Shown here: piece after piece, positions 23,417-53,469 of the stretch
Layout of the letters: every line of letters begins with the position of its first letter
How positions within the stretch are numbered: the first letter of the stretch is position 1
Assembly: GCF_032050975.1 (NCBI RefSeq)
Contig: NZ_CP116967.1
Span: forward strand, 3,283,001 to 3,347,000
Direction of reading: 5' to 3'
Length of the DNA stretch: 64,000 nt
DNA from: Candidatus Nitrospira allomarina
GTDB taxonomy: Bacteria > Nitrospirota > Nitrospiria > Nitrospirales > UBA8639
Program-made: the position numbers and the translations under genes
The notes under the pieces: generated by a model
Seen by the model: the letters and a program-made list of their open reading frames with translations, nothing else
Told to the model about the DNA's origin: nothing
Databases searched by the model: none

Positions 23417-23449
23417 TACCTCACAATATTATATGGTGGGAGATCAGGC

Positions 23450-34909: not shown

Positions 34910-35320
34910 AATCAGGAGGCTGGAGCCTGTCGTGTAAATCAGCATCAGCCCAAGGACAATCGTGAGCGCGGCGATGGAGACCTGCAGCCCGTTGTGAAGC
35001 CAACTTATGGTGAACATGAATATGAATGCGACCTGGTATGATTTTCCGTAACCCATCGCTTCCCAGCCCTGCCAGCATCACCCCCACGGCCAATTACAGC
35101 CAGTTGGCGAGTCGTTCCGGAACCGTAGCTTCCAGGAGGAATACCATCGAGCCAAACAACAGAAGAGTGATTGTATGCCCTAGCCCCAGGTCAATCCCTG
35201 CTTAAGCGTGTTCGCCACCGAATAGTTTTTGGTCGGGAGTGTGGAGACCGCCGCCGCGTGATCGGCCTCGATCGCATGTCCCATTCCCACCAGAAACCCG
35301 AGCCCCAATACACTGACCAT
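34910..35320 (-). pseudogene. Decayed nickel permease gene (UreH/NicO-like)
   Basis: From ATG 35320 the minus strand encodes GLGFLVGMGHAIEADHAAAV, containing the HxxxADH nickel-binding motif of the NiCoT/UreH-type transporters, continuing to QGLTWG. There a lost G puts TAG in frame; the next frame continues LGHTITLLLFGSMVFLLE and ANWL, meets a TAA, then LAVGVMLAGLGSDGLRKI and HIHVHH; a further shift and apparent internal deletion lead to WLHNGLQVSIAALTIVLG and LMLIYTTGSSLLI before TAA near 34910. Family members are about 200-300 residues, so at least three lesions and missing sequence make this nonfunctional. It directly follows hypB, which it overlaps, and would have supplied nickel for hydrogenase. 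Confidence 0.85.
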
Positions 35321-36173
35321 TAGCGAACACCTGCCGGTTTGAAGCGTTGATCTGTGCAGTCACCCAGTCATACCAGTGATGAAGACCCTTGCCAGTCGTG
35401 GCCGAAACCTGAAACACCTGAAGATTAGGATTCACCTTATGAGCAAATTCCAGGCATGTTGCGACATCAAAGGTGAGATGAGGCAAAAGGTCGATTTTAT
35501 TCAGGATCATGACGCTGGCATGTTGAAACATGTGCGGATACTTTAACGGCTTGTCTTCCCCTTCTGTGACGGAAAGAACCACGACTTTTGCCTGTTCCCC
35601 TAAATCAAATAATGCAGGACAGACCAGATTGCCGACATTTTCAATCAATACGAGTGAATTGGATGGAGGCTGCAGCGATTCCAGGCCTCGTGCCAACATG
35701 TCGGCTTCTAAATGGCACCCGGCTCCGGTATTAATTTGTATGACCGGGCACCCCGCTTTTCGTATGCGCTCGGCATCAAATTGGGTTTCCTGGTCCCCCT
35801 CGATCACCGAAATGGGCATGGCATCTTTCAAATCATGAATCGTGCGTTCGAGTAGGGTCGTTTTACCTGAGCCCGGCGAACTCACGAGATTGAGGGCCAC
35901 AATATTTCTGCCGAGAAACCATCCACGATTTCGTTCAGCCAGGCGATCATTTTTCGCTAAAATGGCTTGTTCCAGGTGAACCGTGGTTTCGTGTTCCTGT
36001 TGATGGTCATGGTGAGTATCAAGCTCATGCTCGTGATGGTGGTGCCCATGATCATGGGCATTATGGGAATGAGAGTGATCGGAATGAGAATGGATGGTTT
36101 TATCGGTATGCCCGGCTTGCAAGTTTGTCACTCTTGGATTGGCTGAATCAGAGCATCCGCAGGTCGTACACAT
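35202..36173 (-). CDS. hypB: Hydrogenase nickel incorporation GTPase HypB
   Basis: HypB is a GTPase that, with HypA, inserts nickel into the NiFe-hydrogenase large subunit. Start is ATG 36173, overlapping the hypA stop in TGATG; it gives the N-terminus MCTTCGCSD with the CxxCGC nickel site. A His-rich stretch follows (about 18 His in residues 22-66), then the P-loop SSPGSGKTTLLER, SVIEGDQETQFDAERI, NTGAGCHLEADM, ENVGNLVCPALFD and NKIDLLPHL. The last 40 or so residues (after WYDWVTAQINASN) are not HypB-like; they are read out of frame from the permease pseudogene, suggesting that the original stop codon near 35323 was lost by an indel. Confidence 0.92.
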   Translation of the reverse strand: MCTTCGCSDSANPRVTNLQAGHTDKTIHSHSDHSHSHNAHDHGHHHHEHELDTHHDHQQEHETTVHLEQAILAKNDRLAERNRGWFLGRNIVALNLVSSPGSGKTTLLERTIHDLKDAMPISVIEGDQETQFDAERIRKAGCPVIQINTGAGCHLEADMLARGLESLQPPSNSLVLIENVGNLVCPALFDLGEQAKVVVLSVTEGEDKPLKYPHMFQHASVMILNKIDLLPHLTFDVATCLEFAHKVNPNLQVFQVSATTGKGLHHWYDWVTAQINASNRQVFANGQCIGARVSGGNGTCDRGRSRGGGLHTPDQKLFGGEHA

Positions 36174-36502
36174 CAGGCTGTCACCATGTGTTTCACAAGC
36201 AGTTCCTCTCCCGTGAGCCGCGTGATGTCGACAGAACCACACGGACATCGGTCATAGAGTTGCTCGAGTTCAAAATGCGTTCCACAGGTTCGGCATTCAG
36301 CTGTTCCCGGAATTTCAAGGATCTCCAAATCAGCGCCTTCCACCACGGTTCCTTGACTGACAATGTCGAAACAAAACCGGATGGCTTCGGGCAATACCGC
36401 ACTGAGTTTACCGATGGCGATCGTCACGCGCCTCACCGGTTCTCCACCGGCCTTTTTTGTGACAATGGACACAATATTTCGAGTGATCCCTAATTCGTGC
36501 AT
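36173..36502 (-). CDS. hypA: Hydrogenase nickel metallochaperone HypA
   Basis: HypA delivers nickel to the hydrogenase precursor together with HypB. The 109-residue length is typical. The N-terminal MHEL motif (nickel site with His2) is intact, and the zinc site has CRTCGTHF and CPCGS. It overlaps the preceding FmdE-like gene by 13 bp and hypB by one base, so translation is coupled through the three genes. Confidence 0.95.
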   Translation of the reverse strand: MHELGITRNIVSIVTKKAGGEPVRRVTIAIGKLSAVLPEAIRFCFDIVSQGTVVEGADLEILEIPGTAECRTCGTHFELEQLYDRCPCGSVDITRLTGEELLVKHMVTA

Positions 36503-37056
36503 GCGAACCGGTCCAGAACAGTGGATTTTCCACTGGCGGTCAGGTCAAAAGGAGCCGTGAAGGGTTCATCCCACAGCCGCTCCGTGAGATCGGCTTTTAG
36601 TTTTTCGAGATTGAGAGAGTCTGAAGGCGTTTCCCGGTCCGATCCCACCCGCTCCAGGAGTTCGAAAAATTGTGCAGGGACAAATCCCTTTTTGAGTTCC
36701 ACGTCAACCGTTCGATCGTGATGGGTGACCCACCAACGGAATTGCATTGGCTGATTGCATACAGCAGGTTGGTGAGGATCGAGTAATTGAAACCGCTTTC
36801 GACTCACACACCGTGTCACAAACTCGATGGCATCACGGACACCAGGACCCGGATGGGCGCTGACAACGAATAAACCCTTTCGATCCCATAATTGCTCATG
36901 AGACAGAGCCCAACCCGCCGCTTGCATGGCGCGATACCCGACGCTGGCTCCCCACACTGCATCGCCCTGATGAAACGCAAGAAGCCCCGCATAGGTCAAC
37001 CGTTGGAGTTTCCCGTCTTCAAGGATTTCCAGTATTTCAGAAGTCAATAATTTCAT
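36490..37056 (-). CDS. FmdE-like hypothetical protein in hyp cluster
   Basis: A 188-residue soluble protein. The segment LLAFHQGDAVWGASVGYRAM (about 25-44) and VVSAHPGPGVRDAIEFVTRC resemble the FmdE (formylmethanofuran dehydrogenase subunit E-like) pattern of a FHGH-type motif with a following substrate pocket, though the zinc finger typical of FmdE is not seen. The second half has RWWVTHHDRTVDVELKKGFVPAQFF. It lies between hypE and hypA, overlapping hypA, so it is part of the maturation operon; a role in hydrogenase assembly or metal handling is a guess from context. Confidence 0.6.
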   Translation of the reverse strand: MKLLTSEILEILEDGKLQRLTYAGLLAFHQGDAVWGASVGYRAMQAAGWALSHEQLWDRKGLFVVSAHPGPGVRDAIEFVTRCVSRKRFQLLDPHQPAVCNQPMQFRWWVTHHDRTVDVELKKGFVPAQFFELLERVGSDRETPSDSLNLEKLKADLTERLWDEPFTAPFDLTASGKSTVLDRFACTN

Positions 37057-37068
37057 GACTATTCTTTT

Positions 37069-38172
37069 CTAGCAGATTCGCGGCAATTGATCCCCCACCA
37101 GCGTATCCACGATTCGTGTACCTCCGAAGGTAGTGGCAAGCATTACGATTCCCGCCGGTGAGGCGTTGACACTCCCGATGATGGCACTGTGTTTGCCTAG
37201 GGGATGGTCCCGCATGGCCTCAATAAGTTCGTGAGCGTTTTCATATGGGACCGCTGCCACAATTTTTCCCTCATTGGCCAGGTACAGGGGATCAAGGCCG
37301 AGAATTTCACAGGCTCCTCGAACGGTTTCTCGAATAGGCACATGGGCTTCGTTGATCTGAATCGACACCTTCGAGGCCGAGGCGAATTCATTGAGGACGG
37401 TGGCCAATCCGCCGCGCGTGGCATCCCGCAAACAATGAATATTGGAGCAGACATCCAGCATATGGGACACCAGATCGTGGACTGGCTGGGTGTCGCTTTG
37501 AACATCGGCTTCCAGGGCCAATTCGTTTCGAGCCAGAAGAATGGCCACGCCGTGGTCACCGATAAAACCGTTCGTAATGATGGCATCCCCGGCCTGAGCC
37601 CTAGTTGCGGCCATGGCAACCCCTTCTCGAATTACGCCGATTCCTGCGGTGTTAATGAAGAGCTTGTCCGCGGAACCTTTTTCAACGACTTTGGTATCTC
37701 CCGTAACAATAGAGACCTCTGCCCGATCAGCCGCCTGTTTCATAGCCGAGGCAATGAGGGCGAGCGTGTCCAAGGGAAAACCCTCTTCAATCACCAACCC
37801 GCATGACAAAAATAGCGGGCGTGCTCCGCTGACCGCCAGGTCATTAACCGTCCCGTTCACGGCCAATTCGCCAATGTTGCCTCCCGGAAAAAACAACGGA
37901 TCCACGACATAGCTATCCGTCGTAAATGCCAGCCGGTCACCATGTTGGAGCAATTGTCCCAACGGAATCGTGGCCTGATCTTCTAAGTTATCGAGGATGG
38001 GATTATTAAAGGTTGGGACCAACAGATTCTGAATGAGATCTCGCATGGCTTTGCCGCCACTTCCATGAGCCAGGGTAATCCGTTCATCGTTAGTAGTTCG
38101 GTTCAGCATGGGCTTGGTCTTGACGAAATCCGGTTGAGGAGAAGTAAGCGATTCAGGATTTATCATATTCAA
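37069..38172 (-). CDS. hypE: Hydrogenase maturation protein HypE (carbamoyl dehydratase)
   Basis: HypE receives a carbamoyl group from HypF on its C-terminal Cys and dehydrates it with ATP to thiocyanate, the source of the CN ligands of the NiFe site. The 367-residue protein ends in the obligatory PRIC. It shows LAHGSGGKAMRDLIQNL at the N-terminus, DSYVVDPLFFPGGNIGELAVNG, IVTGDTKVVEKG and LRDATRGGLATVLNEFA. The gene follows hypD by 26 bp. An N-terminal extension of about 25 residues precedes the usual start, so the ATG could lie further downstream. Confidence 0.95.
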   Translation of the reverse strand: MNMINPESLTSPQPDFVKTKPMLNRTTNDERITLAHGSGGKAMRDLIQNLLVPTFNNPILDNLEDQATIPLGQLLQHGDRLAFTTDSYVVDPLFFPGGNIGELAVNGTVNDLAVSGARPLFLSCGLVIEEGFPLDTLALIASAMKQAADRAEVSIVTGDTKVVEKGSADKLFINTAGIGVIREGVAMAATRAQAGDAIITNGFIGDHGVAILLARNELALEADVQSDTQPVHDLVSHMLDVCSNIHCLRDATRGGLATVLNEFASASKVSIQINEAHVPIRETVRGACEILGLDPLYLANEGKIVAAVPYENAHELIEAMRDHPLGKHSAIIGSVNASPAGIVMLATTFGGTRIVDTLVGDQLPRIC

Positions 38173-38198
38173 CCGGTTCTTTACATTCTTATTATGGC

Positions 38199-39344
38199 TT
38201 ACACTGGGCTTCTTGCCGGATGCAGATCTTCTTCGGGAATCCAGCCGTAGTTGTAGTAGGCGGCACAGGCGCCTTCCGTGGAAACCATCAACGCTCCCAA
38301 GGGATTTTGAGGAGTGCAGGCCGTGCCAAATACCTTACATTGACTCGGCTTAATCACCCCCTTCAACACTTCCCCGCATTGGCAGGACGTGGGATCGGCA
38401 ATTTTCAGATTGGGAAGAGGAAATTTTCGTTCAGCGTCAAACGCAGAAAATTCCTCACGGACTCGGACCCCGGAGTGATCGATAGACCCCAACCCCCGCC
38501 ATTCAAAAAACTCCCGCAGTTCAAACACTTCTTGAATAGCCTCTAACGATTGCGTGTTCCCATCAGGAGGAACAATCCGTGTATATTGATTCTCGACTTC
38601 ACAGCGTCCCTCCGCCAATTGTTTCAGAACCATCCACACGGATTGTAAAATGTCCAGTGGTTCAAACCCGGCGATGGTGATGGGCTTTCGATAATATTCA
38701 GCGATAAATGAGTAGGGCTTGGTTCCGATCACCATACTCACATGGCCCGGGCCCAAAAAGCCGTCAAGCTGAAGATCAGGAGAATCCAGGATGGCCTTGA
38801 TCGTGGGAATGATTGTGATGTGGTTACAAAAAATCGAGAAATTTTTGATTCCTTCTTGCTTGGCCTGGAGTATGGTCAACGCCGTACTGGGCATGGTGGT
38901 CTCAAACCCAAGCCCGAAAAAGACCACTTCTCTGTCAGGATTCACTCGCGCAAGATTCAGGGCATCCAATGGTGAATAGACCATGCGCACATCGGCTCCC
39001 TCGGCTTTGGCCTGTAGGAGATTTTTTTTGGAGCCGGTCACCCGCATGGCATCCCCGAATGTGGTCATGATCACCTCGTCCCGTTCAGCCAGAGCAATAC
39101 CGTCATCCACGCGGCCTCGTGGCAGGACGCAAACCGGACAACCCGGTCCGTGAATGAATTCGACTTCCTTCGGGAGCATTTTATTGAGGCCATAGCGAAA
39201 AATCGTGTGAGTATGCCCGCCGCAGACCTCCATGATCCCAATGGGCCGATCGCGGCAGATGGGTCTCCGTTTCACCAGTCTCTCAATTTCCTGGAGAAGG
39301 ATCCGGGCTTTTTGGGGATCCCGAAATTCATCGACGAATTTCAT
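38199..39344 (-). CDS. hypD: Hydrogenase formation protein HypD
   Basis: HypD carries a [4Fe-4S] cluster and, with HypC, assembles the Fe(CN)2CO unit. Start is ATG 39344 (MKFVDEFRDPQKA), which overlaps the preceding SIS-domain gene stop in ATGA; a longer open frame begins at 39437 but has no HypD homology. The 381-residue protein shows EVCGGHTHTIFRYGL, HGPGCPVCVLP, DGFLGPGHVSMVIG, and the Cys-rich region DPTSCQCGEVLKGVIKPSQC with FGTACTP. The arrangement matches known HypD proteins. Confidence 0.95.
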   Translation of the reverse strand: MKFVDEFRDPQKARILLQEIERLVKRRPICRDRPIGIMEVCGGHTHTIFRYGLNKMLPKEVEFIHGPGCPVCVLPRGRVDDGIALAERDEVIMTTFGDAMRVTGSKKNLLQAKAEGADVRMVYSPLDALNLARVNPDREVVFFGLGFETTMPSTALTILQAKQEGIKNFSIFCNHITIIPTIKAILDSPDLQLDGFLGPGHVSMVIGTKPYSFIAEYYRKPITIAGFEPLDILQSVWMVLKQLAEGRCEVENQYTRIVPPDGNTQSLEAIQEVFELREFFEWRGLGSIDHSGVRVREEFSAFDAERKFPLPNLKIADPTSCQCGEVLKGVIKPSQCKVFGTACTPQNPLGALMVSTEGACAAYYNYGWIPEEDLHPARSPV

Positions 39345-40033
39345 GGGGTGTCCTTTTTCGCGGCCGACACGCCCCGATGAGCAGCCAGGAGGGTGTGCAC
39401 GAGATCCCAAAGAATGTGATAGATCAGGACGTGACATTCCTGGATCCGGTGAATACTCTCAGTAGGCACAACCAGGCAATGATCAATGGCAGAAGAGGTT
39501 GCCATGGCTCCCCCAAGTCCCCCGGTGAGGCCAATGGTGGTCACCCCCATCTCCTTAGCTTTCCTAAAGGTCCGCATAATATTTTCGGAATTGCCGCTCG
39601 TGGACACGCCGATCACCCCGTCCCCGGCCTTTCCCTGTGCGATCAGCTGGCGCACAAAAATGTGATCAAACCCCACATCATTTCCTACAGCGGTCATCAT
39701 GGCCTGATCCGCCGCAAGATTGACGGCAGGAAGCGCAGGGCGCCCGGTGGTCACGGGATGTAAAAATTCGACGGCAATATGGGCGGCATCACAGCTCGAT
39801 CCGCCGTTGCCCATCGTAAACAGCCGTCCCTCATGTTGATAAATGTCCGCTACGGCCATGGCAGCGGCCACAACTTTTTCGGCCTGTGCGTCAAAAAATG
39901 TTTGGATGACCTGGGTGCTATCTTGCGATTTCATTCGCACCGATTCAAGCAATCCGGATGTTACGGGTGCCGAATCTTTCGGGGACGGCTGCAGGAAGGG
40001 ATAGAGGGAGGCTAATGTTTTTTGATTAGACAT
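39341..40033 (-). CDS. SIS-domain phosphosugar-binding protein (GmhA/DiaA-like) in hyp cluster
   Basis: A 230-residue protein with one SIS domain, like sedoheptulose-7-phosphate isomerase. Seen: FTMGNGGSSCDAAHIAVEFLH, AVGNDVGFDHIFVRQL, GVSTSGNSENIMRTFRKAK and GLTGGLGG. It is placed between hypC and hypD, with an ATGA overlap into hypD. SIS genes in hydrogenase maturation clusters recur in several bacterial groups, and their role there is unknown; ordinary heptose biosynthesis cannot be excluded. An N-terminal extension of about 35 residues precedes the SIS domain. Confidence 0.85.
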   Translation of the reverse strand: MSNQKTLASLYPFLQPSPKDSAPVTSGLLESVRMKSQDSTQVIQTFFDAQAEKVVAAAMAVADIYQHEGRLFTMGNGGSSCDAAHIAVEFLHPVTTGRPALPAVNLAADQAMMTAVGNDVGFDHIFVRQLIAQGKAGDGVIGVSTSGNSENIMRTFRKAKEMGVTTIGLTGGLGGAMATSSAIDHCLVVPTESIHRIQECHVLIYHILWDLVHTLLAAHRGVSAAKKDTP

Positions 40034-40044
40034 GCGGCCATCCT

Positions 40045-40326
40045 TTAGGAGGTATTCGACTGACGCATCGCCTGGATTTCTGTTTGCACTTCTCCCATTT
40101 CAGTCAGCAACTCTATTGTCCGCTTAGCTTCCTTTTCGTCAATCCGACTCATGGCAAACCCCACGTGAATCAGCACCCAATCCCCGACACAGGATGCAGG
40201 AGAATGCTCCTCATCGACAATGCAGGCGATATTCACTTCCCGTCGAACACCACCCACATTCACGATTGCGAGCTTATGCTCCTCATTGCTGATTTCTACA
40301 ATTTGCCCAGGGATGCCTAAACACAT
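40045..40326 (-). CDS. hypC: Hydrogenase maturation chaperone HypC
   Basis: HypC binds HypD and the large-subunit precursor and carries the iron unit. The 93-residue protein starts MCLGIPGQIVEI with the essential Cys2 and has VGDWVLIHVGFAMSRIDEKEA, the usual core. It overlaps hypF by 10 bp and is followed 11 bp later by the SIS-domain gene, consistent with one transcript. Confidence 0.95.
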   Translation of the reverse strand: MCLGIPGQIVEISNEEHKLAIVNVGGVRREVNIACIVDEEHSPASCVGDWVLIHVGFAMSRIDEKEAKRTIELLTEMGEVQTEIQAMRQSNTS

Positions 40327-42743
40327 GTGGATCGAACCTCCTTGGTCCTTTTCAAGGAACGAGCTGCGGCAATCGCGGCTTGTCCAAGGGCAATGCCACC
40401 ATCGTTCATTGGAACCTGTTTGTGGGAAAGGACGGTGAATCCTTCTGCCGTCAACTTGGCCTTCACAAGTTCAAACAACACCTGATTTTGAAACACGCCA
40501 CCTGAAAGGACCACCGTTTGATGCCGGTCATGACCGTCAGGAGATTGTGAGCACTGTGTGACCATGTGACAAATCACCTTGGCAAGCCCCTTATGAAACC
40601 GTGCGGCCATGACCGGAACCGGTGTGTGGAGAATAAGGTCGCCAAAAAGCGCCTGCCACATTCCTAACGGTTCGACATAGGGTAATCCAGAGTGCTTCAG
40701 GCGCGGAATAGAAAATGGATACGCCAACGATTCGTCCTCATGATGAAGTGTGTCATCATCCACCAGAGCCTCCATCTCCATTGCAGCTTGCCCCTCATAT
40801 AACACGTGCTCGGTGCAAATACCCATCGCAGCAGCGGCGGCATCGAACAACCGACCGCAGGAACTCGCCAACGGACTATTAATCCGGTGGCTCAACATGC
40901 GATTCAGCATCATGCGAGGTTTTTTCTCGAGAAGATCAAACAATGGCAGATCGGAGTAGTTCATCGCAAACTCCGCCCACCCCATTTCTGCCATCACATG
41001 CGCATAGGTGTTTCGCCACGGTTCTTTAATTGCCTGAGTTCCGCCGAGCATCGGTACGGGTTTAAAGGACCCAAGACGAGTAAAGCCCCCATAATCCGCC
41101 AGCAAAAATTCTCCGCCCCAAATTGTGTTGTCTTCCCCATAGCCCAACCCATCCAAGATAACCCCAAGGACCGGTTCAGTATTTAAACGAACCCCGTTTT
41201 CGACCAGACAGGCCGCGAGATGAGCATGGTGATGTTGGATATCGAAAGTCGGCAGACGGTGGAAGTTGGCATGGACCCGCCCGAACTTACTCGACAGGTA
41301 TTCCGGGTGCAGATCAACGGCGATGCTGTCAGGCTTGTGCTCAAACAGGTGTTGGTAATGCGAGATGGCCCGTTGATAATCGGCATAGGTCAAAGAATCC
41401 TCCAAATCGCCAATGTGATGGGAGAGCAGGGCTTGTCCATCTTTGAGTAAGCAGAAGGTATTTTTGAGTTCACCGCCCATAGCAAGAATAGCAGGACTGT
41501 GTTCGAAGCCCGAGGGAAGCCATATGGGTATGGGCGCAAGCCCTCGACTCCGTCGCAGCACTCGTGGAACCTGCTCCATGACTTTGACCACCGAATCGTC
41601 AACACGTTGGGCAATTCCCCGATTATGCAGGACCACAAACTCGGCAATGTTTTTCAAATGTACTTTGGCCTGGTCATTGTCGATCCACTGGGGTTCGCCG
41701 GCATGGTTACCGCTGGTTAATACAATGGGGTGAGCCATGCGATGGAGGATCAAATGGTGCAGCGGTGAGTTGGGTAACATACATCCATAGGTGGACATGC
41801 CGGGAGCGACACTTGGTGCAAGAGCCCTCTCCGCATGGCGCTTGAGGATAACAATGGGGGCCGCCGGGCTTTGTAAGAGTTCGGCTTCCCTCTCCCCTAC
41901 CACACAATACCGGCGAATCACTTCCAGGTCGCGCGCCATTAATGCCAGAGGCTTTCCTTCCCTGTGTTTCAAGGCACGAAGCCGGCTGACCGCGTCCTCC
42001 CGGGTGGCATCGCAGGCAAGTTGGAATCCGCCTAATCCTTTCATGGCCAGAATGTGCCCTTTCCGGAGGAGAATGCCGGCCGCATCTGCCTCATCCAACA
42101 TCGTGTAGGAATGCACCGCCACGGGTTTTCCGTCCATACGTTCAATCCATACCTTCGGTCCGCATGCATGGCACGCGATCGGTTGGGCATGAAATCGGGG
42201 GTTTTGGGGGTCCTGATAGTCCTTGAGACAGGCATCGCATAGAGGAAAATCCTTCAGTGTGGTGGAAGGCCGGTCATAGGGAATCCCTTCCTGAATCGTC
42301 AGGCGGGGTCCGCAATGCGTGCAGTTGGTAAAGGGATAGCGGTAGCGCCGGGCAAAAGGATCAAATATTTCCTTCACGCAGTCCGGACATGGGACGGTAT
42401 CCGGAACAATGCCGGTTTGCACAGGACTTCTGTCGGTACCGGCAATGACAAACGTGTCTTCCGGGACGTCAGACAGGGAAATGCCGCTTGAGAAGATTTC
42501 GGCAATTTTAGCGAGTGGCGGAGGATTGTGAGTCAGTTCATGAATGAAATGCCTGAGGTTATTTTCCTCGCCTGCGACCAGAATTTGAACACCGTTTCCA
42601 TTGTTGGAAACACGACCTCGAAGATCAAAGCGTTGAGCCAGTTGCCAGACCCTCGGACGAAAACCGACTCCCTGGACCAATCCAGACACTTGGATATTGA
42701 ATGCCTGTTCGTTGGAACTTCTTACTGTTACTGTTTCCATCAT
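40317..42743 (-). CDS. hypF: Carbamoyltransferase HypF
   Basis: HypF transfers carbamoyl from carbamoyl phosphate to HypE through carbamoyl-adenylate. The 808-residue protein has an N-terminal acylphosphatase domain (QVSGLVQGVGFRPRVW), paired zinc fingers (CPDCVKEI, CTHCGPRL, CDACLKDY, CHACGPKVW), a YrdC-like domain and a C-terminal Kae1-like domain with HHHAHLAACLVENG and VVLSGGVFQNQVLFELV. It is the first gene of the operon; start at ATG 42743, followed by a second ATG. The carbamoyl phosphate could come from CarAB encoded in the same window. Confidence 0.96.
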   Translation of the reverse strand: MMETVTVRSSNEQAFNIQVSGLVQGVGFRPRVWQLAQRFDLRGRVSNNGNGVQILVAGEENNLRHFIHELTHNPPPLAKIAEIFSSGISLSDVPEDTFVIAGTDRSPVQTGIVPDTVPCPDCVKEIFDPFARRYRYPFTNCTHCGPRLTIQEGIPYDRPSTTLKDFPLCDACLKDYQDPQNPRFHAQPIACHACGPKVWIERMDGKPVAVHSYTMLDEADAAGILLRKGHILAMKGLGGFQLACDATREDAVSRLRALKHREGKPLALMARDLEVIRRYCVVGEREAELLQSPAAPIVILKRHAERALAPSVAPGMSTYGCMLPNSPLHHLILHRMAHPIVLTSGNHAGEPQWIDNDQAKVHLKNIAEFVVLHNRGIAQRVDDSVVKVMEQVPRVLRRSRGLAPIPIWLPSGFEHSPAILAMGGELKNTFCLLKDGQALLSHHIGDLEDSLTYADYQRAISHYQHLFEHKPDSIAVDLHPEYLSSKFGRVHANFHRLPTFDIQHHHAHLAACLVENGVRLNTEPVLGVILDGLGYGEDNTIWGGEFLLADYGGFTRLGSFKPVPMLGGTQAIKEPWRNTYAHVMAEMGWAEFAMNYSDLPLFDLLEKKPRMMLNRMLSHRINSPLASSCGRLFDAAAAAMGICTEHVLYEGQAAMEMEALVDDDTLHHEDESLAYPFSIPRLKHSGLPYVEPLGMWQALFGDLILHTPVPVMAARFHKGLAKVICHMVTQCSQSPDGHDRHQTVVLSGGVFQNQVLFELVKAKLTAEGFTVLSHKQVPMNDGGIALGQAAIAAARSLKRTKEVRSTCV

Positions 42744-44380: not shown

Positions 44381-44706
44381 CATATGCAAATCAGCGCCGG
44401 AAACAGGATCAGAACCGCAGAAATCGAAAGGGCTCTCTTTAGCCATGAGGCGGTGGTGGAAGTCGTCGCTATCGACAACCCGCAGCCGAGCGCGGGAGGA
44501 CAGATCACGACCCTTGCCTTAAACAAAGACAGCAGGAAACGCCGATCTCATTTAAAGTTTGCAGGATCCTGTCTTAGGGGAATTCGGCAGGATCGCCGGC
44601 GCCGGAAAATTTAAAATGTCCCGTCGCTTCCCAAAATCCGATCCGGCAAAATTATGGATCGGGTGAAGGGGGCCAGGAACCCGGAGATACTTTAATACTG
44701 GAAGAA
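44381..44706 (+). pseudogene. Relic of the acs 3' end (copy B)
   Basis: The plus strand carries GNRIRTAEIERALFSHEAVVE, which matches acs codons near 34455 (GNRIGTAEVESALVSHEAVVE), and continues in DNA similarity through the RSGKIMRR region to the acs stop, with several frameshifts, including one in the NKDSRKR part. About 325 bp remain of the last third of the gene. It is nonfunctional. Confidence 0.85.
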
Positions 44707-45157
44707 TGGGAAAGGTTATTTATCAGCACATGAATTGGTATATATGGGAATCACCGCAGGCTCTATGTTTCCTGCCCAGGATGGTGCCTACGATCAATTA
44801 AAGGAACAACCCTTTCTAACCTAGCCAAACACGAAAATTCCTTCAATGCCATACCCATTTCTGCTTGACACTTACCTTGCTTCCTTCCAACAGGTACCAA
44901 AACAGAAATTTCAAAATATCTTGCTCCCCAATGTCCTCACGTTTTTCTTTTGTCTCACCGCACCTGTAAAAATTCCCAATCGACCAGTTAATAGGCCCTG
45001 TTGCGTTCCAAGCGCCCTAAGGAGACAATAGACGGCTGGTGCCCCCATTCATCGTTTCTTCGCACGCATTGACCTATCAGAAAAAGCTGGAAAAATAACC
45101 TTATAGAATAAAAGCTTGTGACTCAACTCTTATCGTGCACACAATGTCTTGAACGAC
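44707..45157. other. Intergenic stretch before xdhA
   Basis: About 450 bp without a credible gene. A TATAGA hexamer near 45100 could be a -10 box for the xdh operon, but no convincing -35 box is spaced correctly. No terminator or RNA gene was recognised. Confidence 0.4.
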
Positions 45158-46717
45158 ATGCCAAATCTGACTTCATTTGATGGCTCTGAGAATTCTGCCA
45201 TCCGTTTTGTTCTGGGTGGGGAAATCAAAACCTTAGCCAACATTGATCCCTCTATGACTATTTTGCGCTATCTGCGGGAAATAGGGAACCGAACCGGAAC
45301 GAAAGAGGCTTGTGGGGAAGGAGGTTGCGGGGCCTGCACAGTGGTTTTGGCGGATTTAAACAATGATGGACGGCTTCGCTATCGCACCATCAATTCCTGT
45401 CTTCACCCATTACCTCAGGTGGATGGCCAGGTGCTTCTCACGGTGGAAGATCTGAAGACGGTCGATGGACACCTGCATCCTGTGCAACAAGCATTGGTTG
45501 AGGCTCATGCCTCGCAATGCGGATATTGTACCCCGGGCATTGTCATGAGTCTGTTTGCGCTTTACCAATCCGGGGAACTCCCCGAGAGAGAAGCGATCGT
45601 CAATGCGTTGACCGGAAATCTATGTCGCTGTACCGGCTATCGACCAATCATTGATGCCGCCTTGGGCCTGTTTGAAAGCGATCGTCCAACCGTCGTGGAG
45701 GGCAACCAACGAATGAACAAAAGTCCCGGGTTTTCCGGGCGAGTGGCTACAGATGAAAGTACACTTCGTAAATTATTAGATTCCATCAAAAGATCCCATC
45801 GACTATCCATACAAGGAAGGACGAGCACGGGGAAAACGAATCGTTATCTGCTCCCTTTGGATCTAGCCGAACTTTCCGACATGCTTGGACAGTATGAAAA
45901 CCCTATTCTCCTTGCCGGTGGCACCGATATTGGCCCCACCGTTTCGCAGAAATCACAGAAAAATGAAACGATAATCTTCATCGGAAAGGTCAAGGAGCTC
46001 CGGGGTATCTTTCTCTCCGATTCAGGTATCACAATCGGTTCGGCGACGACCCTGACGGAAGTCTATCCGGTCATCGCCCGTTACTATCCCGCCTTTGGAG
46101 ATTTATTGCTGCGTTTCGGGTGCCCGGCAGTTCGTAATCTGGCAACCATCGGTGGGAACATTGCCGGCCGGTCACCCGTCAGTGATACCGCCACGGCCTT
46201 GATTGCCCTCGACGGCATGATGGCGTTACGTGTTGCCAACACGCAACGAACCGTGTCGGTGGAAGCCTTTCTGACAGGTGCCAAGCATGATGTTCTCGCT
46301 CCCGGCGAGCTTATCGAATCCATTTTCCTTCCCCTTCCAAAAGAAGGGAGTATGTTCTTTGCGTATAAAATTACCAAACGGCACGATTGTGATATTGCGG
46401 CGATCAGCGCGGCCTTCTCTATGGAACTGAAAGACAACCGGATACACCAGGTGCGTGTGTGCTATGGCGGCATGTCCCCTTACGTGAAGCGGGCTGCTCA
46501 CTGTGAACATGCGTTGACCGGCATGCCCTGGGCTGCAGATACGATAGAAACAGCGGGTCACCAGTTAGCGAAAGATTTTGAACCAACCACCGATGGGCGT
46601 GCCTCCCCGGCCTATCGAATGTTGGTCGCCAAAAACCTCCTTCAACGATGGTATCTTGAATCAACCCTTCCACCGGAAAACCTGCAGGTCAGGGCGTACC
46701 AAAAGACCTATGAGTAA
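45158..46717 (+). CDS. xdhA: Xanthine dehydrogenase small subunit (2Fe-2S and FAD domains)
   Basis: The 519-residue protein combines two [2Fe-2S] domains with a FAD domain, as in bacterial XdhA, oxidising hypoxanthine and xanthine and passing electrons to NAD. Cluster ligands are Cys52, 57, 60, 81 (CGEGGCGACTV) and Cys121, 124, 156, 158 (CGYCTPG, LCRCTGYRP). The FAD part shows LAGGTDIGPTV and TIGGNIAGRSPVSDTATAL. I start at ATG 45158; a TTG nine bases upstream is also possible. It overlaps xdhB by eight bases. The long linker between the clusters and the FAD domain (about 185-225) is as in XdhA. Confidence 0.92.
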   Translation: MPNLTSFDGSENSAIRFVLGGEIKTLANIDPSMTILRYLREIGNRTGTKEACGEGGCGACTVVLADLNNDGRLRYRTINSCLHPLPQVDGQVLLTVEDLKTVDGHLHPVQQALVEAHASQCGYCTPGIVMSLFALYQSGELPEREAIVNALTGNLCRCTGYRPIIDAALGLFESDRPTVVEGNQRMNKSPGFSGRVATDESTLRKLLDSIKRSHRLSIQGRTSTGKTNRYLLPLDLAELSDMLGQYENPILLAGGTDIGPTVSQKSQKNETIIFIGKVKELRGIFLSDSGITIGSATTLTEVYPVIARYYPAFGDLLLRFGCPAVRNLATIGGNIAGRSPVSDTATALIALDGMMALRVANTQRTVSVEAFLTGAKHDVLAPGELIESIFLPLPKEGSMFFAYKITKRHDCDIAAISAAFSMELKDNRIHQVRVCYGGMSPYVKRAAHCEHALTGMPWAADTIETAGHQLAKDFEPTTDGRASPAYRMLVAKNLLQRWYLESTLPPENLQVRAYQKTYE

Positions 46718-49019
46718 CCATGAGATTCCAGGTGGTGCCGGATCGTCCAAAATGCACGATAGCGCTCGTTTACATGTGACCGGCGAGGCAGACTACGTCG
46801 ACGACCTGTTGGCTCCCGCATTGACACTTTATGCGGCTTTTGGAGTCAGCCAATATGCTCATGCACGCGTCACCACACTTGACCTGGAACGCGTCAGACA
46901 GTCTCCCGGGGTTGTGTCGGTTGTCACTGCACACGATATTCCTGGGGAAAACCTCATCAGCTTCATTCAGGCGGATGAGCCCGTCTTTGCTTCGACGCAC
47001 GTTGAGTGTGTCGGACAGCCGCTCTATGCCGTGGCTGCGCAATCATTTCAGCAGGCGCGAGCGGCGGTCAATTGCGCGAGGGTGGAATATGACCCTCTGG
47101 TGCCGGTTCTCACGGTCGAACAAGCGCTGGCTGATGATTCGTTTGTCCTGCCATCGAAACGCCTATCCAGGGGAAACGCCACGCAGGCGCTGGAATCCGC
47201 TACTCACCACCTGGAAGGACAACTTAAGGTCGGCGGCCAGGAGCACTTTTATTTCGAATCCCAGGTGGCCCTGGCGATTCCCAATAATGACGGAGGAATC
47301 TGTATTCACAGCGCCACCCAGTATCCTTCACATATCCAACAGGCGGTTGCCCGGGTGCTGGGGTTGAAACGAATCAGTGACGTGACAGTGATGTGTCGTC
47401 GTATGGGGGGTGCCTTTGGGGGTAAGGAAACTCAGTCGACTCTCTTTGCCTGTGTGGCGGCTTTACTCGCCGCAAATACGGGTCAGGCTGTGAAATGCAG
47501 GCTAACCCGGCAGGAAGACATGGTGATGACCGGCAAGCGGCATGATTTTATGGCCCTCTATCAGGTCGGCTTTGACGATGAGGGGCGAATCGAGGGATAC
47601 AGGGTGGAGCTGTCCTCACGGTGCGGGATGTCTGCCGATCTCTCAGGATTTATTAACGATCGTGCCATGCTTCACAGCGACAATTGTTATTTTTTACCTC
47701 ATGTGACCATTAACTCTCACCGCTGCAAAACCAACACGGTATCCAATACCGCTTTTCGCGGATTTGGCGCCCCCCAGGGAATCTGGGTGATGGAACAGAT
47801 TATCGACGAAATTGCCCGTTACCTCGGTCAAGATCCGCTCGACATCCGCAAACGAAACTTTTACGAACCAGGGCAACGTGATACCACGCCTTATGGCATG
47901 CGTGTCGAAGACCGCCTATTACATGAGATCGTCTCACGCCTGGAAACAGATGCCAGGTACCGGGAGCGTCGTGCTGAAATCGAGGATTTCAACCGTCATA
48001 GTCCGATACTTAAACGCGGCTTGGCGTTGACTCCGGTGAAATATGGTATTGCTTTTACTCAAACCCATTTAAACCAGGCCGGTGCATTGGTCCATGTATA
48101 TATCGACGGCAGCGTCTACCTGAATCATGGCGGAACAGAGATGGGCCAGGGGCTCTATACCAAAGTCGCTCAGGTTGTCGCCGAAGAATTGCAGATTGAT
48201 ATCGGGCGCATTACCATTTCTGCGGCCGATACCAGCAAAGTTCCGAATGCATCAGCGACGGCGGCCTCGGTTGGGGCGGACCTCAATGGCAAGGCCGCTC
48301 AAGCGGCTGCCCGAACAATCAAAATTCGTCTGATCGAATTCGCTGCAAAGCATTTTCACATCCGGCCGGAAGAGGTTGTCTTTTCAAATAACCGGGTATT
48401 GCTCGGGTCCCAACATATTTCGTTTCAGGATTTGGTGGCGCTCGCCTATCAAGAACGGATCTCATTGTCAGCGACCGGGTTTTACCGAACCCCGGAAATC
48501 GAGTTCGACCGAAGCAACTTCACCGGCCGGCCCTTTCTGTACTTTTCCTATGGCGCAGCGGTTTCCGAGGTGGCGATCGATACCCTGACAGGAGAAAGTA
48601 CACTGCTGAGGGTCGATATTTTGCACGATTGTGGAAGATCACTGAATCCTGCCATTGATCGCGGGCAGATTGAAGGGGCCTTCCTTCAGGGGGCAGGCTG
48701 GTTAACAATGGAGGAACTGATCTGGAATGATGCCGGAGTTCTGCAAACTAACACCTCGTCCTCCTACAAAATTCCGGCCTGCCGTGATTGCCCTGTGCAT
48801 TTTAATGTTGAGTTACTCGAGACCGCGCCCAATCGAACAGACAGTGTGTTTTCCTCCAAGGCGGTTGGTGAACCGCCATTCATGCTGGCCATCTCGGTGT
48901 TCCAGGCCATTAAAGATGCCATTGCCGCGGCCGGGAACCTTTGTCGACGTCCGCAATTAGATGCACCGGCAACCCCGGAACGCATCCTGAAGGCCATTCA
49001 GGACATTCGTTCAACATGA
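46710..49019 (+). CDS. xdhB: Xanthine dehydrogenase molybdenum-binding subunit
   Basis: The 769-residue molybdopterin subunit starts at ATG 46710, which overlaps the xdhA stop; a longer open frame to 46578 overlaps xdhA deeply and is not homologous. Substrate-site motifs are those of xanthine rather than aldehyde oxidoreductases: RMGGAFGGKETQ (Glu), TAFRGFGAPQG (Arg) and AVGEPPFML (catalytic Glu). GTEMGQGLYTKVAQV and ATAASVGADLNGKA bind the cofactor. Followed by xdhC after 22 bp. Confidence 0.93.
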   Translation: MSNHEIPGGAGSSKMHDSARLHVTGEADYVDDLLAPALTLYAAFGVSQYAHARVTTLDLERVRQSPGVVSVVTAHDIPGENLISFIQADEPVFASTHVECVGQPLYAVAAQSFQQARAAVNCARVEYDPLVPVLTVEQALADDSFVLPSKRLSRGNATQALESATHHLEGQLKVGGQEHFYFESQVALAIPNNDGGICIHSATQYPSHIQQAVARVLGLKRISDVTVMCRRMGGAFGGKETQSTLFACVAALLAANTGQAVKCRLTRQEDMVMTGKRHDFMALYQVGFDDEGRIEGYRVELSSRCGMSADLSGFINDRAMLHSDNCYFLPHVTINSHRCKTNTVSNTAFRGFGAPQGIWVMEQIIDEIARYLGQDPLDIRKRNFYEPGQRDTTPYGMRVEDRLLHEIVSRLETDARYRERRAEIEDFNRHSPILKRGLALTPVKYGIAFTQTHLNQAGALVHVYIDGSVYLNHGGTEMGQGLYTKVAQVVAEELQIDIGRITISAADTSKVPNASATAASVGADLNGKAAQAAARTIKIRLIEFAAKHFHIRPEEVVFSNNRVLLGSQHISFQDLVALAYQERISLSATGFYRTPEIEFDRSNFTGRPFLYFSYGAAVSEVAIDTLTGESTLLRVDILHDCGRSLNPAIDRGQIEGAFLQGAGWLTMEELIWNDAGVLQTNTSSSYKIPACRDCPVHFNVELLETAPNRTDSVFSSKAVGEPPFMLAISVFQAIKDAIAAAGNLCRRPQLDAPATPERILKAIQDIRST

Positions 49020-49041
49020 CAAGCTGGTCCTCCGGCCAACT

Positions 49042-50175
49042 ATGAATACCTGGTTAGCAGTGCTGGAATCCATGAGAGATCGGCGAATGGCCTGTGCCCT
49101 GGTGGTCCTGGTACAGACAACAGGATCAACCCCGCGTGAAGTGGGGGCCAAGATGGTCGTCACTGCATCTGATTATTTTGGATCCATTGGCGGCGGTGCT
49201 CTGGAATATGAGGTCATCGAAAAGGCGCGCCAGATGCTGCGGGCTGAGGGGAATCAACAGCCAAAACGATGTCTTCGAACCTGGCACCTTGGGGCGGATG
49301 TCGGCCAATGTTGTGGAGGGGCATGTACCCTGTATCTGGAAATACTCCATCCGGTTGACCATTTCTGGCTGAACCATTTGATAAAGTGCCGGAATAACGA
49401 ACCGTGTGTTCTCATTACTTCTCTAGACAGTCAGAATGGATCTGACAGACAGGGGAAAATGATCGTGACTACACACCATGTTGAAGGGAGTCTGGGAGCC
49501 GGTCAGGAGTCCGTGTTGGATCATGCCCGCACCTTGCTGAAATCCTCCGTCAATTCCGACATGAATCCGCATGTGGTGTTTCGCAAACCAGGGGACCAAT
49601 GGCCAGCCTACTTGTTAGAGTTATATGGTCTCAATCCTTTTAGACTGGTTTTGTTCGGGGCCGGCCATGTTGGGAAAGCCATCATTGGGGTGATAGGGGG
49701 GTTGCCCTGCCATGTCACCTGGATCGATGCACGGCCCGAAATGTTTCCCGTCTCCGTTCCACCGAATGTGGAAAAGGTGGTAACAGAACAGTATGTTGAA
49801 ATTATTCAGGAAACGCACCCAGGGACATTCTTCCTGATCATGACACATAGCCACCCGCTTGACCTGGAACTCTGCGAACATATTCTGAAACGCGGGGATT
49901 TCCGGTATCTGGGACTTATCGGATCAAAAACCAAGCGCACCCGTTTTGAAAAACGACTTCTCCAAAAGGGATTGAGGCAGGAGGAGATAAAACGCCTCAT
50001 TTGCCCCATCGGCATCCCGGAAATTTCCGGCAAATACCCCGGCGCTATCGCAGTCTCCGTCGCAGCACAGATTCTCCAACAACTGAATACAACAGGGACC
50101 ATTACAGAGGAAGCACCCACCATGAAGACCTTCATCTCTGAAGAAAGTGCCTACCAATATCCGAACAGTCTTTAA
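49042..50175 (+). CDS. xdhC: Xanthine dehydrogenase accessory protein XdhC
   Basis: XdhC/CoxI family proteins bind the molybdenum cofactor, promote its sulfuration and insert it into XDH. The 377-residue protein has the N-terminal XdhC/CoxI domain (TTGSTPREVGAKMVV, GSIGGGALEYEVIE, LGADVGQCCGGACTLYLE) and a C-terminal Rossmann-type domain with LFGAGHVGKAIIGVIG, TWIDARPEMFP and MTHSHPLDLELCEHIL, then RYLGLIGSKTKRTRF. It follows xdhB directly, so the three genes form a complete enzyme unit. A C-terminal tail of about 25 residues is unusual. Confidence 0.92.
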   Translation: MNTWLAVLESMRDRRMACALVVLVQTTGSTPREVGAKMVVTASDYFGSIGGGALEYEVIEKARQMLRAEGNQQPKRCLRTWHLGADVGQCCGGACTLYLEILHPVDHFWLNHLIKCRNNEPCVLITSLDSQNGSDRQGKMIVTTHHVEGSLGAGQESVLDHARTLLKSSVNSDMNPHVVFRKPGDQWPAYLLELYGLNPFRLVLFGAGHVGKAIIGVIGGLPCHVTWIDARPEMFPVSVPPNVEKVVTEQYVEIIQETHPGTFFLIMTHSHPLDLELCEHILKRGDFRYLGLIGSKTKRTRFEKRLLQKGLRQEEIKRLICPIGIPEISGKYPGAIAVSVAAQILQQLNTTGTITEEAPTMKTFISEESAYQYPNSL

Positions 50176-50181
50176 AGCCTT

Positions 50182-51474
50182 ATGACGAAAAAACTCAGAT
50201 TTTGCCTTTGCACGACCTTTTATCCGCCTTACAATTCGGATGCGGATGGGTTGTACGTCCACCGACTGGCCAACGGGCTGGCGAAACTGGGCCATGATGT
50301 CACGGTGTTACATAACCCTGATGCGTATGAAGTCCTGACAGGGAAAAAGGTTGTTGAATCCTACGAAGATCATCCCACTATCACCATCCAAAAAATCACC
50401 TCTCCATTGAAACGTCTGAGTCTCTTGGCCGTTCATCAAACCGGAAGACCGTTTGGCCAGAAAGCCAGCCTACAAAAATGCTTCAAAGAGCATTTTGATG
50501 TCATTCACTACTACAACATTTCATTATTGGGGGGTCCTGAAATCTTCAGCTACGGACAGAGCACTATCAAAATGTGTGGATTGAATGATCACTGGTTGAT
50601 TTGCCCTATGCACCTCCTTTGGAAATATACCAACGAGGTCTGCGAAAAGCCCCAATGCCTCACCTGCACGGTACGGAATGGCAAACCACCCCAATTTTGG
50701 CGCAATACCGGTCTCATGGAAAACATGACCAGACATGTCGATGTGTTCCTGGGCCCAAGCCTTTTTACCATTCACAAACATCGTGAGCGTGGGTTCAGGA
50801 ATGTCATGATTCATTTGCCCCCTTTTTACACCATTCCGGAACCAGCCAAGGGGACTCATGAGATCCTACCGGCAAATGCAGCGTACTTTCTTTGTGTCGG
50901 CCGGTTAGAAGAATATAAAGGCTTTCAAGATGTTATACCCCTATTCCGTCACATTCAGGACCATACACTGATCATTTGTGGGCGAGGCAGCTATAGTCCG
51001 CAATTACACGATTTGGCCAACGGCATGCCCAATGTGTTGTTCGTTGATCAATATTCCCAAAGCCAAATTCAAGTACTATATGAGAACGCATTGGCCACCA
51101 TTGTCCCCTCACTTTGCTATCAAACCTTCTGTCACATCACCGCGGAATCCTATTCTGCCGGAACTCCCGTCATTGCCAGGAAGCAAAGTGCTGTCGAAGA
51201 AATCATTTCTGAAAAGGGGGGTGGGATTTTGTACACGAATTCAACAGAACTTCAACAAGCCATCACCACAATGATTGCTGATGCAAAGAAAAGGAATGAA
51301 CTCAAAGGCGAAGCCAACCAGGCGTACCATCAGGAATATTCGGAAGAGGTCTATTTGCAACGATACTTGGATATCGTAGAAGAACTGTTGTTACAAAAAA
51401 CCCAATACGGGGCAATACAGGAATACGACCCAGAAAAGAGGACATTTGCTGAGAGGAAAATATTCGGCCTGTAG
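50182..51474 (+). CDS. Glycosyltransferase family 4 protein
   Basis: A 430-residue GT-B glycosyltransferase. The N-terminal domain begins RFCLCTTFYPPYNSDADGLYVHRLA; a Cys-containing insert CPMHLLWKYTNEVCEKPQC with CLTC is common in one GT4 branch. The C-terminal donor domain has FLCVGRLEEYKGFQDVIPLF, and ITAESYSAGTPVIARKQSAVEEI, the GT4 sugar-nucleotide site. It follows xdhC by 6 bp and precedes the P450 gene by 3 bp, so it is part of the same operon. Donor and acceptor sugars cannot be told; a product also hydroxylated by the P450 is conceivable. Confidence 0.85.
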   Translation: MTKKLRFCLCTTFYPPYNSDADGLYVHRLANGLAKLGHDVTVLHNPDAYEVLTGKKVVESYEDHPTITIQKITSPLKRLSLLAVHQTGRPFGQKASLQKCFKEHFDVIHYYNISLLGGPEIFSYGQSTIKMCGLNDHWLICPMHLLWKYTNEVCEKPQCLTCTVRNGKPPQFWRNTGLMENMTRHVDVFLGPSLFTIHKHRERGFRNVMIHLPPFYTIPEPAKGTHEILPANAAYFLCVGRLEEYKGFQDVIPLFRHIQDHTLIICGRGSYSPQLHDLANGMPNVLFVDQYSQSQIQVLYENALATIVPSLCYQTFCHITAESYSAGTPVIARKQSAVEEIISEKGGGILYTNSTELQQAITTMIADAKKRNELKGEANQAYHQEYSEEVYLQRYLDIVEELLLQKTQYGAIQEYDPEKRTFAERKIFGL

Positions 51475-51477
51475 TCA

Positions 51478-53034
51478 ATGCCCCCGATTCCTATCCTCAA
51501 TGACTTTTCGAAACTCACCATCCTCATGACATCACTAATTACGGTGATAGCCGTATTACTTCCTCTCGCTCCCATTTTGAACGTGTACCGTCTGCCAGGT
51601 TTCATTCGTCGCCTGCGATTGTTTCCTCGTGTGTTTGTCCTACTCAGTTCGGCTATTGTCTTATATATTTCCCTGACTGTCTTGCTCGTCCTGTATTTTC
51701 CCCGGTATGTCCCTGCAGTGTTGGTTTTGGCTTTTCCATTGGTGTTTTACCTGTACTTTTGGCGCGCAAGGTCGACATTCGGCTCTAAGAAGAGACTTCC
51801 TCCCGGTTCTCTGAGACTCGCACCTCCAGGCCCTTGGGTTGATTATTTGTATTATCAGAAACAGGCTGATAAACACGGCCCCATTTTTAAAATGAATAAT
51901 TTCGTCCAGCCGATGATTTGTCTGGCTGGAATAGAACTGGGTACAGAATTTTTAAAACTCCACGAAGATGATACAACGACACCGCCCATGCCTTTTAACA
52001 GTCGCATCCCCGGCGGCTTCATGCGTTATATGGCACCCGCCATTCACATGGAATATCGGAATAAAATGAAAAACATTTTTTCTGACCATATATTCCTTCA
52101 GGGAAAGGAAGAGTTGATTGGTGAGATTATCAGGGACAATCTCTCAAAAATGTCAAGCCATACAAAATGTACGAATCCAGTTCCCCATTTCCAGAACATG
52201 GCATTTTCCATTTTCGTGGCGCTGTTTCTGGGAATTTCTCCTCATGATCAGGACTTTAGACGGTTGCAAAAATTATATGAAAAAATTGATTACCGGCACG
52301 CGCTGTTTACGACCAAATCAAAGATTGATCAATCTTTGGATGAAATTGAAAAGATATTTCTGAGCCACGTACATGAACGACCATCCTATTTTAGAAGTTT
52401 CCTTGGAGACCAGCTTCATGATTGCTCAACATATTCCCATGACACCACCTTACTGCGGAATTTCATCTATCTGCTTCAAACGTCCTGGATAGATGTATCC
52501 GACCTTTTATTCTGGATGTTCAAATTGCTCAGTGACAACGCTCAATGGATAAAGGCGCTTCGCACGAACCTCCACTCACAAGACGAATCACTCAGACAAT
52601 CTGCGCACCAATTGGGCAATCGTGTTGTTCTTGAAACTCTGCGGCTGGAGCAAAGCGAATATCTTATGCGCAAGGCCCTGCGCGACATTGAATTTGAAGG
52701 ATTTTTGATCCCAAAAGGCTGGCTGGTACGGATTGGCATTCGTGAAAGCCATCGGGATGCTGACATCTTCCCGAACCCAAATGCCTTCAACCCTGATCGC
52801 TTTTTAACAACGTCCATCGGCCCCAAGCAGTATTCTCCTTTTGGCATTCAACAGAAATCGTGTCTGGGAAAGGGACTCACTCTTTGGATTGGACAGAAGG
52901 TTGTTCTGGAATTAGCGCAAGGCTTTACATGGAAAGTCGTTCATGATGGTCCCCGAGAATTGGGGGTCTTTCATTGGAGGCCCAGTGCTAAATTACGGGT
53001 ACAGATGTCTTCGTTTTCTATAAATTCAGCATAA
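51478..53034 (+). CDS. Membrane-anchored cytochrome P450, atypical
   Basis: A 518-residue P450. Two or three N-terminal hydrophobic helices (about 13-34, 53-75 and 78-94) would anchor it in the membrane. The ExxR motif is E386-TLR-389, and the haem ligand is Cys462 in SPFGIQQKSCLGKG, where the usual Gly and His/Arg of FGxGxHxCxG are replaced. NAFNPDRF (PERF-type) precedes it. The I-helix region (about 330-350, LLQTSWIDVSDLLFW) lacks the classical AGxxT acid-alcohol motif, so oxygen activation may differ, or the enzyme may use peroxide or rearrange substrates. It closes a tight operon with XDH and a glycosyltransferase, which I have not seen described. Confidence 0.85.
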   Translation: MPPIPILNDFSKLTILMTSLITVIAVLLPLAPILNVYRLPGFIRRLRLFPRVFVLLSSAIVLYISLTVLLVLYFPRYVPAVLVLAFPLVFYLYFWRARSTFGSKKRLPPGSLRLAPPGPWVDYLYYQKQADKHGPIFKMNNFVQPMICLAGIELGTEFLKLHEDDTTTPPMPFNSRIPGGFMRYMAPAIHMEYRNKMKNIFSDHIFLQGKEELIGEIIRDNLSKMSSHTKCTNPVPHFQNMAFSIFVALFLGISPHDQDFRRLQKLYEKIDYRHALFTTKSKIDQSLDEIEKIFLSHVHERPSYFRSFLGDQLHDCSTYSHDTTLLRNFIYLLQTSWIDVSDLLFWMFKLLSDNAQWIKALRTNLHSQDESLRQSAHQLGNRVVLETLRLEQSEYLMRKALRDIEFEGFLIPKGWLVRIGIRESHRDADIFPNPNAFNPDRFLTTSIGPKQYSPFGIQQKSCLGKGLTLWIGQKVVLELAQGFTWKVVHDGPRELGVFHWRPSAKLRVQMSSFSINSA

Positions 53035-53175
53035 TTCGTATCCCAAAACCATGTTTAAACCTTCCTGGCTACTGTTTTACGAAGCGACCAGTGATAAGTA
53101 TAAATATTTCTCCTATTCATTCCGATAAATGGAAGAGTGATTCCGGAGTCGTCCAAAGACAGCTGTGAAAGGCAC

Positions 53176-53469
53176 ATGAACAGCCAATTGCCCAATAGTA
53201 AGACAGGAAAAAAGAAGGACAATCGTCAATCCGCAGATTCTGAGGATTGCCTGTACTGTCCTTTGAGAAGGCCTGTCTTTTGGCCTATCGCGTTTCTTCT
53301 TTTTGTATTGAGTCCTTTAATCTTTTCTTCCAATATTTCAAATACATCTTCAAATCCCCAGCTTGCATCCTCGCCTCCTGTCCCCAAACAAACCAAGGCT
53401 CAAGATGTGGACGATAAAAATTCTTCATTTCAAAATGTTCAACTCCGGAACCCGGTTTCTCAAAAATAA
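53176..53469 (+). CDS. Small single-helix membrane protein, hypothetical
   Basis: A 97-residue frame starting at ATG 53176, with GAAAGG just upstream. It has a polar, Lys-rich N-terminus with CLYC, one membrane helix (about residues 35-52, PVFWPIAFLLFVLSPLIF) and a Ser/Pro-rich tail. No family is known. It follows the P450 gene by about 140 bp on the same strand and could be the last gene of that operon. Support is modest because composition is simple. Confidence 0.4.
   Translation: MNSQLPNSKTGKKKDNRQSADSEDCLYCPLRRPVFWPIAFLLFVLSPLIFSSNISNTSSNPQLASSPPVPKQTKAQDVDDKNSSFQNVQLRNPVSQK

Follow-up and report, generated by a model that had tools for sequence, protein, structure and literature searches.

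A conserved operon linking a purine-type xanthine dehydrogenase to a GT4 glycosyltransferase and a divergent membrane cytochrome P450 in Candidatus Nitrospira allomarina

Genes for the three parts of a xanthine dehydrogenase (XDH), a GT4-family glycosyltransferase and a membrane-anchored, non-canonical cytochrome P450 were found to stand side by side in Candidatus Nitrospira allomarina, within a stretch of 64,000 nucleotides (the window; positions 3,283,001-3,347,000 of the single-contig 4.55-Mb genome). In our preferred reading, to which a probability of roughly 0.5 is attached, they constitute one conserved operon that spreads horizontally and encodes an oxidation-and-conjugation pathway; its substrate would be a purine or a heterocycle resembling one, and purine degradation would not be its role. 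That the five genes make up a functional unit is considered highly likely, and that the P450 and XDH serve one pathway is considered likely; the product may be a purine or heterocycle conjugate, with the odds somewhat against this part.

The sequence-only reading had described xdhA, xdhB, xdhC, GT4 and P450 genes on one strand with gaps of -8, +22, +6 and +3 bp, and the open reading frames at 45158-53034 (+) agree with it (Table 1). An alternative TTG start of xdhA is present at 45149. A scan for promoters and terminators between the five genes gave no call above the shuffled expectation, and from the gaps we infer that the genes are co-transcribed.

Table 1. Coordinates of the operon genes and of the two flanking features (positions in the window; scores in bits)
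Feature	Coordinates	Strand	Length and basis
xdhA, XDH 2Fe-2S/FAD small subunit	45158-46717	+	519 aa; TIGR02963 (525, cut-off 467); Pfam Fer2, Fer2_2, FAD_binding_5, CO_deh_flav_C
xdhB, XDH molybdopterin large subunit, purine-type active site	46710-49019	+	769 aa; TIGR02965 (1176, cut-off 850); best PDB 1JRO chain B
xdhC, Moco insertion/maturation factor	49042-50175	+	377 aa; TIGR02964 (290, cut-off 162)
GT4-family glycosyltransferase with four-Cys insert	50182-51474	+	430 aa; PF00534 (69.6, cut-off 26.4)
Membrane-anchored non-canonical cytochrome P450	51478-53034	+	518 aa; PF00067 (99, cut-off 22.8), alignments, tree, hydropathy
Upstream flank: decayed acetyl-CoA synthetase C-terminal fragment, outside the operon	44396-44680	+	tblastn of window acetyl-CoA synthetase, 46% identity, frameshifted
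Downstream flank: small ORF, outside the operon	53137-53469	+	matches in G010 and G003, both without the operon

Several features of the surroundings were recorded in addition. The intact acs gene, to which the upstream fragment was compared, lies at 32896-34782; further copies matching the fragment occur in genome G003 (L072), and it is possibly a recombination scar. Hydrogenase-maturation genes (the hyp set) adjoin the operon on the minus strand at 35202-42743 and are syntenic in genome G010, too. Three tandem paralogous genes for secreted HEAT-repeat-like proteins of about 365 aa occupy 21106-24553, and two similar tandem genes are found in G007 (L059).

The five-gene order was sought in other genomes and was present in two of them. 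The sister genome G018 (L002) carries the same five genes with the same gaps of -8, 22, 6 and 3 bp, and G162, which belongs to another family within the order, carries them in the same order on one strand, with identities to the window of 75% (XdhA), 85% (XdhB), 58% (XdhC), 71% (GT) and 66% (P450). The nearest named record seen was Nitrospiraceae bacterium UBA8639 (XdhB, 94%; 93% nucleotide identity over 10.2 kb). A chance adjacency of the five genes was ruled out by the order being kept at high divergence, and an insertion of the GT-P450 pair behind XDH in the window strain only was ruled out by G018 and G162. Spacing in G162 is looser (about 270 bp between xdhB and xdhC, 87 bp between xdhC and GT, and 62 bp between GT and P450), so that translational coupling is not universal. 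The dN/dS ratios were 0.12-0.30 for all five genes in comparisons of the window with both G018 and G162, and all five are under purifying selection.

Window-type XdhB (at least 85% identity) was encoded by two of 395 Nitrospirota genomes, i.e., the window genome (G000) and G162, to which G018 was added from the search for relatives; the other two XdhB matches among the 395 were 30% relatives. The window-type P450 was found in the same three genomes, and as a remnant in G010. Thus, in the surveyed Nitrospirota, window-type XDH always occurred with GT and P450, and an intact window-type P450 never occurred without XDH; the GT and P450 genes are not absent beside XDH in the relatives, the outcome that had been named as contradicting a link between them.

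The history of the operon was reconstructed from these genomes. Relative to the window, the sequence of the sister genome G010 skips from 44403 to 51917 and from 52020 to 52598, leaving two P450 pieces only (L053 9330-10534; G010:C1:1306.3-1307.5 kb), and the alignment identifies this site as an operon deletion with a P450 scar. In G003, the operon was absent between the flanking matches. The operon looks acquired in G162, because its GT and P450 genes have a GC content of 48-50% against 56-60% around them, the P450 was absent from the congeners of G162 that were checked, and other content occupies their site. Four-fold-site identity between the window and G162 was 60% for xdhA and xdhB and 42% for xdhC, GT and P450 (Fisher p 2e-7), and it was similar along each gene, with a step at the boundary of xdhB and xdhC. 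The xdhAB and xdhC-GT-P450 blocks were therefore probably swapped separately with the order kept, giving the two halves separate histories, although differing codon constraint is a possible alternative cause of the step.

The XDH was assigned to the purine type from several lines of sequence evidence. All three parts passed the NCBIfam equivalog cut-offs (Table 1), and the NCBIfam aldehyde models scored far below cut-off. When XdhB was aligned to Rhodobacter capsulatus XdhB (1JRO), E232, R310, F344, F459 and E730 were all identical; these are the residues that we take to form the purine-type active site. The window XDH thus resembles the R. capsulatus-type XdhABC in its subunits, in passing the family cut-offs and in the residues of the active site. 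In Nitrospirota it differs by the GT4 and P450 genes downstream; in addition, no match was found to uricase (G000, G018 and G162) or to 5-hydroxyisourate (HIU) hydrolase (window genome). In the XdhB tree, the Nitrospirota proteins grouped with those of Azospirillum and Thauera, the nearest relatives seen, whose XDH operons contain no GT and no P450.

A further indication came from G162, where models of adenosine deaminase match the gene that precedes xdhA. Its nearest PDB chains are 3ou8, 3pan, 3pao and 3pbm, presumably all of P. aeruginosa Pa0148, a protein that has been reported to be an adenine deaminase. This gene had no match in five congeners of G162; a 49% relative lies at 712 kb of the window genome. 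Together with the family scores and the active site, it supports the earlier reading of the XDH as purine-type. The sequence-only reading, which is supported in part, had also suggested a glycosylated product derived from a purine or heterocycle, which may be formed, or oxidation of another N-heterocycle or an aldehyde, of which the aldehyde is disfavoured by the active site.

It had likewise held that the five genes are not a standard purine-catabolic set, and the search for purine genes elsewhere supports this. No uricase of family PF01014 was detected in G000, G018 or G162, and urate may still be degraded without it, e.g., by FAD-type or membrane urate oxidases; no HIU hydrolase (PF00576) exceeded its cut-off in the window genome; and the best match there to the xanthine/uracil permease family (PF00860) reached 24.7 bits, below the cut-off of 27. 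Upstream purine-degradation genes were also reported absent in a 2025 survey of floodplain nitrifier MAGs (PMC12625717).

The P450 retains the heme-ligand cysteine (Cys462) and the ExxR motif (E386xxR389), both invariant in all five members of its clade. In its I-helix, SWIDV replaces AGxET, the AGx(D/E)T motif being lost across the clade, and in the Cys loop FGIQQKSCLGK replaces FxxGxRxCxG, with loss of the loop Gly and Arg. Hydropathy analysis revealed strongly hydrophobic N-terminal stretches at about residues 9-96, and an N-terminal membrane domain was likewise predicted for the P450s of G162 and a Phycisphaerales MAG, and not for that of Mesorhizobium. These four P450s and that of G018 formed one clade (support 100/99) that has a long stem and is separate from the canonical Nitrospirota P450s. 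An AlphaFold2 model of the window P450, built from a 3-sequence alignment, was discarded (mean pLDDT 41). By profile matching, the nearest solved structures were CYP120A1 and terpenoid/steroid P450s. With CYP120A1 and the CYP85-clan terpenoid/steroid enzymes the window P450 shares the heme Cys and ExxR, and it is nevertheless distant from them (about 25% identity to a CYP120-like protein), differing in the missing AGx(D/E)T and Cys-loop Gly/Arg, the N-terminal membrane domain and the separate clade. The likeness points to a lipophilic substrate more than to a purine, which is the main tension in the preferred reading and keeps alternatives involving lipids, or a GT-P450 pair independent of XDH, alive.

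The same clade was found beside an XDH in another phylum. A contig of a Phycisphaerales MAG (L005 3982-12331), chosen solely because it encodes XDH, carries a sulfotransferase gene, then P450, methyltransferase, sulfotransferase and xdhA genes, in this order, that overlap by 4 bp at each of their three junctions; xdhB follows after 3 bp. Its P450 falls into the window P450 clade (E 3.6e-36; 26% identity), and its XDH keeps E232 and R310 by motif. Among 15 XDH loci outside Nitrospirota, this was the only one with the odd P450 alongside. Phycisphaerales and Nitrospirota XdhB do not form one clade (AU p 7e-53); since they are not sisters, the P450-XDH pairing very probably arose separately. The association has thus probably arisen at least two times, the second case being one MAG contig, and a possible route is that the P450 by itself was transferred to an XDH operon already in place.

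A third setting of the clade is on plasmids of Mesorhizobium symbionts (NZ_CP033508.1, L087 9923-12213), in which the P450 gene overlaps a GT2 gene and no XDH is annotated within 10 kb. This pair resembles that of the window in joining a same-clade P450 to a GT gene, and differs from it by the GT2 in place of GT4, the lack of a nearby XDH and the P450 without an N-terminal membrane domain. Across plasmids, XDH was found in 227 records and a match to the window P450 in only 7, none of which was among the best 25 of the 227 XDH records; the window GT gave nothing at E 1e-30. Viral contigs searched with the P450 clade profile also gave no match.

In the GT4 family alignment, R241, K246 and E322, at the catalytic R/K and Glu positions, were invariant in 11 relatives, as were C141, C154, C159 and C162, and the four-Cys insert possibly binds a metal. 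Same-genus relatives of the GT4 adjoin canonical P450s in clusters that also hold several GTs and a gene of the polysaccharide flippase family. GT4-P450 pairs thus recur, with P450s of two clades. One such pair, with a canonical P450, is in the window genome itself (L051 9172-11779; G000:C1:949.2-951.8 kb), within a polysaccharide-type cluster whose other genes include flippase-family, GT2, GDSL and Gfo/Idh members; similar pairs were found in G010, G007 and G019. These polysaccharide-type pairs of Nitrospira (L051, L052, L054 and L055) share with the window the GT4 family followed by a same-strand P450, and differ in having a canonical soluble P450 of the other clade, no XDH, and flippase-family and GT2 surroundings.

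Such pairs raise the alternative that xdhABC is an ordinary transferred operon for purine salvage or oxidation, with GT-P450 as an unrelated pair that modifies glycans or lipids and has nothing but the transcript in common with it. The related clusters, the Azospirillum and Thauera operons lacking both genes, and the different divergence of the xdhAB and xdhC-GT-P450 blocks all fit it. The operon P450 is, however, of another clade than the P450s of the polysaccharide clusters, and this odd clade is also tied to an XDH of another phylum that is not sister to the first; moreover, window-type XDH always came with the pair in the surveyed Nitrospirota, and the searches above found no uricase, HIU hydrolase or permease. 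This alternative is judged rather unlikely. A further alternative is that the Mo enzyme acts on an aldehyde or a non-purine heterocycle within a P450-GT pathway, which would agree with the resemblance of the P450 to terpenoid/retinoid P450s, aldehyde oxidation being suited to a lipid pathway. The retention of E232 and R310 in the window and, by motif, in Phycisphaerales, the low scores of the aldehyde models and the adenine-deaminase-like gene adjoining the operon in G162 make it very improbable.

Two other explanations concern the function of the P450 itself. It could be a partner or activator of the GT and not an oxygenase, as EryCII is for EryCIII. EryCII/DesVIII activators are P450-fold proteins encoded beside a glycosyltransferase, and the odd P450 adjoins a GT in the window, G018, G162 and Mesorhizobium, has a degenerate I-helix and heme loop, and weakly matches TIGR04515 (P450-derived GT activator). 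The heme Cys is missing from the activators known so far (PMC3391682), whereas Cys462 and ExxR are invariant here; TIGR04515 scored 19.9 bits in G162 against a cut-off of 343 and was absent from the matches of the window P450 at E 0.001; and the Phycisphaerales P450 has methyltransferase and sulfotransferase neighbours and no GT. Membership in the EryCII-type family was rejected on the Cys and the TIGR04515 result, a rejection that applies to membership and not to mechanism, and an activator role is held to be improbable. Alternatively, XDH might be the source of H2O2 or of reducing equivalents for a P450 deficient in O2 activation, which would work, as a peroxygenase or an XDH-fed enzyme, on a separate substrate. 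The loss of AGx(D/E)T across the clade, the recurrence of XDH beside it and the absence of a redox partner gene from the operon would suit this arrangement, but redox partners may be encoded elsewhere in the genome, and R. capsulatus-type XDH is NAD-dependent. Membership in the CYP152 peroxygenases, again as distinct from their mechanism, was ruled out by the NF053744 score of 18.5 bits in G162 (cut-off 600), and little credence is given to this explanation.

In the preferred oxidation-and-conjugation pathway, XdhC would mature XdhAB, which would hydroxylate a purine or a close N-heterocycle, e.g., hypoxanthine or xanthine derived from adenine; the membrane-anchored P450-clade protein would take the next step; and the GT4 would add a sugar to give a conjugate whose use lies outside of primary metabolism. 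The conjugation in Phycisphaerales would instead be the task of the methyltransferase and sulfotransferases. Purine as the substrate, the order of the steps and the placing of the sugar on the XDH/P450 product are what we infer from the gene content. More broadly, and with the odds somewhat against the proposal as a whole, the loci may represent an undescribed, horizontally spread operon class of Nitrospirota and Planctomycetota. In it, an R. capsulatus-type XDH, a divergent membrane P450 with lost normal O2-activation motifs and an enzyme of conjugation (GT4, or else sulfotransferase and methyltransferase) would together yield purine- or heterocycle-derived conjugates. The enzyme families are each known; no description of an XDH-P450-GT operon was found in the open-access literature, and there is a reasonable chance that the pathway is undescribed.

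XDH is usually taken as a sign of purine catabolism, and the evidence here points to a conserved oxidation-and-conjugation role in bacteria of a nitrifier lineage. The odd P450 clade, in which the heme ligand is kept and the standard O2-activation motifs are gone, might carry out P450 chemistry of an unusual kind, and its separate pairing with two non-sister XDHs provides a clear, testable hypothesis on the substrate of the P450.
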